A DNA stretch of 64,000 nt, from the NCBI RefSeq assembly GCF_012524075.1, contig NZ_JAAZUI010000001.1, positions 186,001 to 250,000 on the forward strand, given 5' to 3'. The stretch comes from Lutibacter sp. B1 (GTDB taxonomy: Bacteria > Bacteroidota > Bacteroidia > Flavobacteriales > Flavobacteriaceae). The position numbers and the translations under genes are program-made. Positions within the stretch are counted from its first letter, which is position 1. Every line of letters begins with the position of its first letter. This document shows positions 7,251 through 9,959 of this stretch, piece by piece. A model generated the notes under the pieces. The model saw nothing but the letters and a program-made list of their open reading frames with translations, did no database searches and was not told the origin of the DNA.

Positions 7251-7284
7251 AAAAAGCTGCAAAATAAATTTTGCAGCTTTTTTT
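7251..7284 (+). terminator. Rho-independent terminator of the marR-fadNAE operon
   Basis: A perfect 14-base-pair stem (7251-7264 with 7269-7282) around GCTGC/GCAGC, loop TAAA, followed by a T-run. It lies 30 bases after the fadE stop. Confidence 0.9.
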
Positions 7285-7294
7285 ATGTAACCTA

Positions 7295-7325
7295 TTGATA
7301 ATTAAATGCTTTTTTTGTAATTTTA
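7295..7325 (+). promoter_or_regulatory. Promoter of the GGQ protein gene
   Basis: TTG at 7295-7297, a spacer of 20 bases, then TAATTTTA at 7318-7325. This is the Bacteroidota TTG / TAnnTTTG arrangement with one mismatch in the -7 box. The coding start lies 57 bases downstream. Confidence 0.5.
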
Positions 7326-7382
7326 ATGTAGAAAACTTAACACACCTACTACCCCAATTGTTTAATCTATAAATCTACAATT

Positions 7383-7814
7383 ATGAAAAAAAACATTGGT
7401 ATTTGGATTGACACTTCTCAAGCGTATATTATTAAACTTTCCAACAACAAACATTCAATAAAAAAAATTGAATCAAATATTGAAACCAGAGAACGTATTC
7501 CCGGAGAATCAAAAAAATATGGAAGATTTGGTGGTCAATATATTACTTACGAAAAAAACAGACAAAATCGTAGAAACGAACAAACCAATCATTTTTTAAA
7601 AGATTTATTAAAAGAAATTAATAATTGTGATTCTTTAGTATTATTTGGACCTTCTAAAATGAAAAAACTACTTGAAAAAGAGATTAAAAATAATATGCAA
7701 CTTTCACATAAAATAGTTGGCATTGCTAATTCAGATTTATTAACAGAAAATCAAATGGTAGCTTGGGTAAAAAACTTTTATAAGATTAATTTAACTCAAT
7801 CTACACATCCTTAA
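7383..7814 (+). CDS. eRF1 domain-2-like protein with a GGQ motif (BaeRF-like)
   Basis: A 143-residue soluble protein in its own transcription unit. It opens with a beta strand, IGIWIDTSQAYIIKL. At residues 46-52 it carries YGRFGGQ, followed by a basic helix (KNRQNRRNEQ), a strand SLVLFGP near 84-90, then another helix. This order and the motif resemble domain 2 of eukaryotic and archaeal release factor eRF1, which has HGRGGQSA, a basic helix and then an LVLAG strand. Related bacterial families have been described as bacterial eRF1-like (BaeRF). The tRNA- and stop-codon-reading domains are missing. A role at the ribosome or on peptidyl-tRNA is inference; the fold assignment rests on eye alignment. 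Confidence 0.55.
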   Translation: MKKNIGIWIDTSQAYIIKLSNNKHSIKKIESNIETRERIPGESKKYGRFGGQYITYEKNRQNRRNEQTNHFLKDLLKEINNCDSLVLFGPSKMKKLLEKEIKNNMQLSHKIVGIANSDLLTENQMVAWVKNFYKINLTQSTHP

Positions 7815-7929: not shown

Positions 7930-8691
7930 ATGAAATCTAAATTTTTATTAATAGTTATAACAGTTCTTTTCTTTAACCTAACTTCAGCGCAATCTAATAA
8001 AGTTGATATTCTAAAAACCAATAATGGTTCTTTAAAAATTCAACCTATAACGCACGGTAGCTTAATATTAACTTATAATAACAAAACTATTTATGTGGAT
8101 CCTTATGGTGGCGGTGAATTGTATAAGAATTTAGAATCACCCGATCTTGTTTTGATAACCGATATTCATGGAGATCATTTAGATCAAAAAACATTAGACT
8201 CAATTGATACTTCAAAGGCAATTTTTATTGTTCCAAAAGCTGTTGCCGATAAACTTCCTGTACAATACAACTCAAAAATTACAGTGCTTGATAATGGACA
8301 AGGTGTGCATAGATTAGATTTATTTATAAAAGCAATTCCTATGTATAATTTACCCGAAGAAAGAGGCTCTAAACACCCAAAAGGAAGAGGTAATGGTTAT
8401 ATTTTAACTATTGACGGCAAACAAATTTATATTTCAGGTGATACAGAAGACATTGCTGAGATGAGAGCCTTGCAAAATATTGATATTGCATTTATTTGTA
8501 TGAATTTACCTTATACAATGGATATTAATCAAGCAGCAAGTGCTGTTTTAGAATTTCAACCAAAAGTTGTGTATCCATATCATTACAGAGGTAGTGAAGG
8601 CTTCAGTGATATCCATCAATTTAAAAACTTGGTAAATGCTAAGAACCCTTTTATTGATGTTAGACTAAGAGATTGGTATACAACAAACTAA
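7930..8691 (+). CDS. Secreted metallo-beta-lactamase-fold hydrolase, UlaG-like
   Basis: 253 residues with an N-terminal signal peptide ending near SAQ (residues 1-20). The metal-binding fold is shown by TDIHGDHLD near residue 78, ISGDTED near 175 and a late histidine in YPYHYRG near 218. This is the pattern of the MBL superfamily group that includes UlaG and UPF0173. The first motif reads D-x-H-x-D-H rather than the usual H-x-H-x-D-H. The substrate is unknown. Export to the periplasm is likely. It ends overlapping, by four bases, the stop of the converging DUF2851 gene. Confidence 0.85.
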   Translation: MKSKFLLIVITVLFFNLTSAQSNKVDILKTNNGSLKIQPITHGSLILTYNNKTIYVDPYGGGELYKNLESPDLVLITDIHGDHLDQKTLDSIDTSKAIFIVPKAVADKLPVQYNSKITVLDNGQGVHRLDLFIKAIPMYNLPEERGSKHPKGRGNGYILTIDGKQIYISGDTEDIAEMRALQNIDIAFICMNLPYTMDINQAASAVLEFQPKVVYPYHYRGSEGFSDIHQFKNLVNAKNPFIDVRLRDWYTTN

Positions 8692-9959
8692 TTTTTCAAT
8701 AATTCTTTTCCAATAGCGCATTGTAAACAAAGCTGTTTATTGCAATATTCGTTTTTTAATTCGAGTAAAGCTTGAGTTTTAAAAGCATTTTCACTTCTAA
8801 TTTTCAAATCATTAAATTTTGAAATTATTGAATTACTTTCCGGTTTTATGTTTTCTGCAATAGAGATTATTGAACTCACATCATCTTTCCCTATACTTTT
8901 TAAATACCAAAATTTAATAGGTATTATAGTGTTTATAAGTAATAGATCGATAAATGATTTTGAGAGTTTTTTTACACTTTTTTTGGATTCTTTTTCAAAT
9001 GTAAAATGCGTTTCCCAAAACGGTGAAGTTGTTATATTAAATAACTTATAATAATCTTCAATAGTTTCAATTTCAATAACTTTTGAAAATAAACTTTGAT
9101 ATGTATTGTACAAAAAAGCAATTTGAGACAACCTAATTGTAGGAAAATTATTGGGGCGTAATCTAAAAAATTGAACTTGTTCTTTTAAAATTGGTTGTAA
9201 ATGAAACTTAGCTGTTAAATAATCATATTCTGCTTTTAAACTATTGAAATATTGAGACTCAACCTCATTCAACAACAAACCTGCTTGTCCAAAAAACAGT
9301 GCTTCCAATTGTTCAATATTTGATGAAACTTTTCTAACAATTGAGAAATTTATCGATTTTGCGGTAGTATAAAATGCTTCTCCATTTACTTTTAACCCAA
9401 AATTTTTCATCAGCAAAATAAAAAAAGTTGCTTCCCAATTATTGTTTGTTTCTTTTAAAATTTGCTCAATTAACTTAGACTTATTTTCAATTCGATTAAT
9501 ATAAAGCCTCTCAAACCAATTAAACAGCACAAAAGGGCTTATTGTGTTTATCTCACTCTCACAATTTATCCAATTTTTATTTTTACTAAAAAGTTGTTTG
9601 TAATTTTTTAATAAATCGTTTGAAATAAAATTCTTTAACTCCAATGTAGTTATTACCTCTTTTGTTTTTCTATAAATAGCAACATCATGTTCCCAAACCA
9701 CATGTAAGATTACGGAATCGTAATTTTCGTCTAATTCGTGATGATGAACATACCAATCTGATGAATTTATATGAATTTCAACATTCCCTGCCCAAAGTTG
9801 ATTATCAATTAAAATTTTGGCATTTAAAAAATCAGGACCAGAATTAAAGTTCTGATTTCCATTTGAAATAATTTCTACTTTTTCTCCGTTTGTAGATTGT
9901 AATTTACCTGTTGAAAACAGTTTAAGTTTCCAAATAAAATGCAATAAGTCTTCTTTCAT
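8688..9959 (-). CDS. DUF2851 family protein
   Basis: A 423-residue protein matching the Bacteroidota family DUF2851 over its length. The N-terminal part has the conserved NSGPDFLNAKI, WAGNVEIHINSSDWYVHHH and VILHVVWEHD segments. The C-terminus ends with a cysteine cluster, CNKQLCLQC, which could bind metal. There is no signal peptide. The HxxxD-like spacing of the N-terminal histidines suggests an enzyme, but the function is not known. It converges on the MBL-fold gene with overlapping stop codons. Confidence 0.88.
   Translation of the reverse strand: MKEDLLHFIWKLKLFSTGKLQSTNGEKVEIISNGNQNFNSGPDFLNAKILIDNQLWAGNVEIHINSSDWYVHHHELDENYDSVILHVVWEHDVAIYRKTKEVITTLELKNFISNDLLKNYKQLFSKNKNWINCESEINTISPFVLFNWFERLYINRIENKSKLIEQILKETNNNWEATFFILLMKNFGLKVNGEAFYTTAKSINFSIVRKVSSNIEQLEALFFGQAGLLLNEVESQYFNSLKAEYDYLTAKFHLQPILKEQVQFFRLRPNNFPTIRLSQIAFLYNTYQSLFSKVIEIETIEDYYKLFNITTSPFWETHFTFEKESKKSVKKLSKSFIDLLLINTIIPIKFWYLKSIGKDDVSSIISIAENIKPESNSIISKFNDLKIRSENAFKTQALLELKNEYCNKQLCLQCAIGKELLKN

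Follow-up and report, generated by a model that had tools for sequence, protein, structure and literature searches.

The gene under study occupies positions 7383–7814 (+ strand) of the window, by which we mean the whole 64,000-nucleotide stretch of Lutibacter DNA that was analysed. The open reading frame runs from ATG to TAA and encodes a 143-residue, single-domain protein that resembles domain 2 of eRF1, as judged from AlphaFold2 models and Foldseek searches. Translation places YGRFGGQ at residues 46–52, followed by a basic stretch, and SLVLFGP at residues 84–90; the frame, the motif, the basic stretch and the LVLFGP strand were therefore present as an earlier, sequence-only reading of this DNA had described them. 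The YGRFGGQ codons (7518–7538, + strand) encode the loop that matches the GGQ loop of eRF1, and Q52 within it is the residue conserved in the family. The codons for residues 1–31 (7383–7475, + strand) specify three N-terminal strands, as placed by the family alignment and the model, and include the most conserved residues of the 96-row family alignment (G6, W8, D10, A14 and S31). The codons for strand 4, DSLVLFGPS (7629–7655, + strand), carry the invariant G89 together with the highly conserved P90 and F88.

We found 13 close orthologues, 63–76% identical to the window protein, in Lutibacter species, in isolates and MAGs labelled Lutibacter and in two other Bacteroidota MAGs (L005 and L011). 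An acyl-CoA dehydrogenase gene lies upstream in all 13 orthologue loci and is adjoined by thiolase and 3-hydroxyacyl-CoA dehydrogenase genes (neighbours in the window were named by Pfam); the exception in spacing is L012, with about 1.6 kb between. The presence of 13 orthologues in a conserved gene order indicates that 7383–7814 is a true gene. A DUF2851 protein of unknown function is also encoded inside the conserved gene block (8691–9959, − strand; Pfam E 1.7e-147). No stress genes adjoin the gene at the Lutibacter locus, and the HPF gene of this genome is on another contig. Profile searches of the window's own genome with eRF1_2 and Host_attach returned no match.

Between the acyl-CoA dehydrogenase gene and the window gene there is an intrinsic terminator hairpin (7251–7284, + strand) with 14 pairs, a T-rich 3' arm and a fold z-score of −5.7. 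Hairpins whose longest uninterrupted run is at least 12 pairs fold in all 14 upstream regions, and the strong flanking terminator proposed earlier is thus real; the consensus terminator scan missed the hairpin at 7251–7284. Further downstream, the block TTTTTTTGTAAtTTTA / TTTTTTTGTAATTTTA (7310–7325, + strand) aligns with few changes in 14 of 14 upstream regions and is probably a promoter element of the window gene. The sequence-only reading had given the gene its own promoter; this conserved block would fit that claim, whereas sigma-70-type sites were not above chance (4 seen versus 7.0 in shuffles). In the 5' leader (7346–7382), a CTACCCCAATTGTTTAATC-like stretch is partly conserved across Lutibacter upstream regions.

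To characterize the fold, we used an AlphaFold2 model of the window protein built from 16 sequences (pLDDT 82.3, pTM 0.71). The model has strands at residues 4–9, 13–20, 23–30, 84–88 and 111–115 and helices at residues 50–80, 92–103 and 122–140. An extended loop between strand 3 and the next helix is present at residues 31–49, with a conformation of low confidence (mean pLDDT 67 for residues 31–40 and 53 for residues 41–50). In Foldseek, all 32 PDB matches at E≤0.001 were eRF1, aRF1, Pelota or Balon structures, entries 9i2d, 8ip8 and 3vmf among them, and the best match (2.3e-8) was a human eRF1 chain. A second AlphaFold2 model, that of a Tenacibaculum relative with 35% identity and a GPQ loop (pLDDT 80.4), gave 22 PDB matches at E≤0.001, all of them to the same four proteins. 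Among the matches are Balon homologues (8v9j/k/l, 9.9e-5 to 7.1e-4) and an eRF1 middle domain on its own (2hst, TM 0.60–0.64). Just above E 0.001, Foldseek also returned other RNase H-like and ASKHA folds, such as CAB1 pantothenate kinase (1.3e-3), Ppx/GppA and YqgF. The two predicted structures support the eRF1 domain-2 fold and the order of elements proposed from the letters, and the single-domain architecture holds throughout the family, whose 96 homologous ORFs are 111–173 aa long.

At the sequence level, the window protein fell below the cut-off of all Pfam and NCBIfam models. Its Pfam bit scores against the cut-offs were 15.8/26.7 for Host_attach, 12.7/27.1 for baeRF_family10 and 14.5/27.7 for baeRF_family12, and none of the 11 members with scores reached any of these three cut-offs. 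The eRF1_2 family was matched by 9 of 40 members at E≤1 (best 8.9e-4), the most members for any of the 69 Pfam families found, and in the 2 members with positions the match ran collinearly through most of the domain. Unrelated Pfam families reached similar E values: Arb2 in 5 members (best 6.4e-4) and MLLE in 1 (5.6e-4). Among the NCBIfam models, Pelota TIGR00111 was matched by 4 of the 40 members (best 1.6e-4), aRF1_eRF1 TIGR03676 by 1 (1.5e-4), the Rv2629 family by 3 (best 0.0038) and the AOC03_06830 family by 1 (0.0065). No VLRF1-named model was among the matches listed for the 40 members scanned (25 Pfam and 25 NCBIfam families). The suggested kinship to bacterial eRF1-like proteins was upheld by hhalign, which aligned the family with domain 2 of four such proteins at a score of 30.6 (probability 50.7%); the best of 20 column shuffles reached 17.7 and the reversed control 13.9. 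Against the single human eRF1 domain the score was 22.0 (probability 9%), while the reversed sequence reached 20.2 and the best of 30 shuffles 13.9; this alignment barely beats its reverse and is unconvincing on its own. PDB sequence searches gave best E values of 0.12 for the window protein and 0.15 for the A2 profile (40 of 54 family members), and no aeRF1 protein was found in them. A literature search on the label "translational machinery protein" gave no title about this family among the matches listed. Four bacterial eRF1-like proteins of 363–439 aa (L141–L144) share the loop GGW(S/A)Q-x-RY-x-R, in which the glutamine stands two residues after GGW.

We then compared the loop across the 96 rows of the alignment, from which 19 of the 38 matching f17 genomes were left out. 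The Q52 column is Q in 77 of the 96 rows. Literal GGQ occurs in register in only 14 rows, all Lutibacter-type, and a GNQ row stands among the GGQ rows; GGQ as a conserved catalytic signature was thus rejected. Of the two observations which the sequence-only reading had named as speaking against it, non-conservation of GGQ was found and absence of the eRF1 domain-2 fold was not. Because the tripeptide occurs twice among the 74 stop-to-stop frames of at least 100 residues in the window, it is weak evidence by itself, and the assignment rests on the fold as predicted and on the glutamine in the loop of the family.

The rows fall into four groups by loop type: RFGxQ (18 rows: GGQ 14, GDQ 2, GNQ 1, GTQ 1), GPQ (39), AQ (20, with a GGT-x-VAQ loop or close to it) and the other 19. 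The loop glutamine is kept in 18/18, 36/39, 20/20 and 3/19 rows, respectively. The mean column entropy of the loop versus the rest was 0.89/1.25 for RFGxQ, 1.22/1.70 for GPQ, 0.70/1.05 for AQ and 2.54/1.93 for the others, so that the loop is conserved above the rest of the protein in the three Q-bearing clades and below it in the other 19 rows, a contrast that arises in part by construction because the groups were defined by loop type. Loop length is 34–35 residues in 73 of the 77 Q-bearing rows, and the residue preceding Q is small in 76 of the 77 (P 33, A 23, G 14, T 3, D 2, N 1, H 1). Basic residues mark the beginning of the helix that follows, K58, R60, R63 and R64 in the window protein, with the consensus EREK in the GPQ clade and RKH in the AQ clade. 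In a midpoint-rooted tree of 83 rows (13 of the 96 left out) based on few columns, RFGxQ without L070 is sister to GPQ (support 84/87), and the GNQ row, from the same genus, is placed amid the GGQ rows of Lutibacter (92/89 with L007). The branch of L070 is long and its position uncertain.

Family matches were found in 41 of 149 Flavobacteriaceae genomes and in 59 of 296 genomes of the window's phylum; of these 59, 38 belong to a single family, f17, apparently Chlorobiaceae. A further 4 of 148 genomes of the phylum of a Desulfobacteraceae MAG have matches. Matches to baeRF_family12 occur in 1 of 99 genomes of the window's phylum, and Host_attach in 4 of 59 genomes of the other phylum searched. 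Relatives of the window protein were absent from phages, plasmids and viral contigs at the limits used, and a phage or plasmid setting was rejected on this ground. The relative L015 gave two matches in cyanobacterial plasmids and L020 gave one of those two, named hypothetical protein. An anti-phage label was likewise rejected, PADLOC giving nothing for the window protein at E≤0.001; it gave weak matches for 2 of the 3 neighbour proteins scanned.

The neighbourhood of relatives was mapped by clustering neighbour genes with blastp and checking one or two representatives of each named cluster in Pfam, over flanks of 4.5–6 kb that were cut at contig ends (4 of the 96 loci were unmapped). In the GPQ clade, the main Flavobacteriaceae clade with 38 of 39 loci mapped, a gene of the universal stress protein (Usp) cluster lies within five genes in 32/38 loci, and a Usp gene is directly upstream on the same strand in 31/38. 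The gap to a same-strand upstream gene is 10–14 bases in 16 of 36 loci. Hsp20-cluster genes (14/38) and HPF (3/38) also occur within five genes, as do an ATP-cone/Mrr nuclease cluster (22/38), a beta-CASP/RMMBL hydrolase cluster (23/38) and a lipoprotein-like protein without a Pfam match (14/38). Within five genes at the 54 mapped loci outside this clade, Usp was seen once (L134), the Hsp20 cluster once (L140) and HPF never; at L134, from the phylum of the Desulfobacteraceae MAG, Usp and Hsp20 lie downstream of the family member. Across genomes, HPF lies within 20 kb of the family gene in 13 of 57 versus 1.06 expected from gene number and genome size, uncorrected for genome relatedness; the count excludes the 38 f17 genomes and G000, in which the HPF gene is on another contig. 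The genes near the family members in relatives point towards stress and hibernation. The short-loop, glutamine-less members L122–L124 have Dps-like ferritin genes within two genes, which is a second stress link. Nothing was found for tRNA cleavage, which the sequence-only reading had offered among its ideas, and it was rejected as the leading one.

The best explanation of these results is that the window protein is a stand-alone member of the archaeo-eukaryotic release factor (aeRF1) superfamily, reduced to the RNase H-fold middle domain. It shows the features of that superfamily: a predicted domain-2 fold, the extended loop, the loop glutamine and a basic helix start. It resembles the middle domain of eRF1/aRF1 in the strand-helix order and in the loop between strand 3 and the long helix, with KKYGRFGGQ in the window protein against KKHGRGGQ in human eRF1; unlike eRF1/aRF1, it has no domains 1 and 3, and GGQ is no family feature (14/96). 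Bacterial aeRF1 relatives were described by Burroughs and Aravind in 2019, including three families reduced to the core domain (PMC6514570). According to the text of that paper, versions without flanking domains usually have no loop glutamine, the loop is poorly conserved in broad families, family 10 is among a few baeRF-1 families that keep the glutamine, and HPF genes lie near several baeRF-1 families (PMC6514570). The family described here is like the stand-alone baeRF-1 proteins of that text in being bacterial, in having an RNase H-fold core without flanking domains, in the nearby HPF and in its weak Pfam matches. It differs from them (Host_attach, baeRF_family10/12) in falling below the Pfam cut-offs and in keeping the glutamine, in three clades, in a loop more conserved than the rest of the protein. 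Single-domain bacterial aeRF1 relatives are thus already published, and our family, by comparison with the main text of PMC6514570, would be a variant among them. The family holds clades whose glutamine loop is conserved as well as rows whose loop has decayed; it is therefore a small system in which the function of the loop can be studied apart from codon reading.

A second comparison is with Balon, from a study reportedly by Helena-Bueno and colleagues. As described in the text of PMC10901736, Balon is a three-domain hibernation factor of the A site without GGQ, and its genes lie in stress operons, most often beside RaiA. The survey removed sequences under 300 aa (PMC10901736), which places proteins of the present size outside its dataset as that text defines it. 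The window protein and its relatives resemble Balon/Rv2629 in the fold match, in the weak NCBIfam matches and, for the relatives, in a context of stress operons and HPF; they differ in having one domain with a conserved loop glutamine, where Balon, by the same text, has three domains and no GGQ.

We tentatively propose that the protein is a stress-associated ribosome factor that would occupy the peptidyl-transferase centre (PTC) in hibernation. The basic residues with which the long helix begins would bind 23S rRNA on the A-site face of the large subunit, the loop with Q52 would reach the PTC and occupy it as Balon does, and this occupancy might help to silence or protect the ribosome. The computed basis is the predicted fold, the family, the loop conservation and the stress neighbourhood in relatives; from these we infer ribosome binding, PTC occupancy and expression under stress. 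In favour of occupancy, both predicted models matched only eRF1, aRF1, Pelota and Balon in the PDB at E≤0.001, the profile match to bacterial eRF1-like proteins exceeded its controls, with eRF1_2 the commonest Pfam match, and the Usp/Hsp20/HPF context of relatives would parallel the stress operons of Balon genes. Against it, the protein lacks the stop-codon-reading and C-terminal domains that Balon, eRF1 and Pelota have, the gene in Lutibacter lies outside a stress operon, stress genes are rare beyond the GPQ clade, and pure occupancy would not call for a conserved glutamine; the weak hhalign to human eRF1, the unrelated Pfam families at similar E and the other folds just above the threshold also count against it.

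A rival explanation is a single-domain peptidyl-tRNA hydrolase, in which the loop Q would coordinate water at the PTC and free nascent chains from stalled ribosomes or 50S–peptidyl-tRNA, as reported for VLRF1 proteins of the Vms1/ANKZF1 type. The protein is like VLRF1 in having mostly small residues before a conserved loop glutamine with no strict GGQ, as the text of PMC6514570 describes it, and unlike it in having no VLRF1 extensions in its 143 aa. Q is conserved in the three main clades, and in each of them the loop has a lower entropy than the remainder of the protein; this, the narrow loop length and the small residue before Q all agree with a hydrolase; a conserved Q and a narrow loop length are reported for known or predicted active families in that text (PMC6514570). 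However, Gly-Gly is not kept and Pro is commonest before Gln, unlike the GGQ, GxuQ and GGxSQ given there, no codon-reading or recruiting domain would limit the activity, and 16 of the 19 remaining rows have no Q. We therefore regard this reading as doubtful. A version of it that we consider unlikely would make the family a bacterial release or rescue factor of one domain, which hydrolyses peptidyl-tRNA in the archaeo-eukaryotic way and acts under stress alongside Usp, HPF, Hsp20 and nucleases; its glutamine loop would have been rebuilt in each clade (GGQ/GxQ, GPQ, VAQ), with literal GGQ in Lutibacter. If true, the family would be a natural test of the need for Gly-Gly in release chemistry.

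The frequency of the Mrr/ATP-cone and beta-CASP/RMMBL clusters at GPQ-clade loci would suit a protein that has put the fold to use away from the ribosome, in RNA binding or regulation, for example together with the ATP-cone/Mrr nuclease and the beta-CASP hydrolase whose genes adjoin it in relatives. Among the mapped loci, however, both clusters occur only in non-Lutibacter Flavobacteriaceae and are thus no constant partners, and the PDB fold matches at E≤0.001 are all ribosome factors, which makes such a role improbable. That the motif arose by chance in an unrelated fold, the alignment of the sequence-only reading being coincidental, is very hard to credit: the second GGQ among the 74 long frames of the window, the lack of GGQ conservation, a GGQ in L105 that falls outside the loop and a single-eRF1 hhalign little above its reverse would suit it, but neither model has a match at E≤0.001 that is not of aeRF1 type, the bacterial-relative profile match is well above controls and the loop Q is conserved.

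The operon with Usp, Hsp20 and two enzymes of nucleic acids yields further candidates for ribosome hibernation in bacteria. A protein of about 136–167 residues lies within five genes in 25/38 GPQ-clade loci (for example L069:716–1156, − strand); two representatives had no Pfam match and one had no PADLOC match. The ATP-cone and Mrr-type nuclease protein of the stress operon at L069:3607–4446 (− strand) gave weak PADLOC CARF-PDDEXK matches and is possibly a nucleotide-sensing nuclease.
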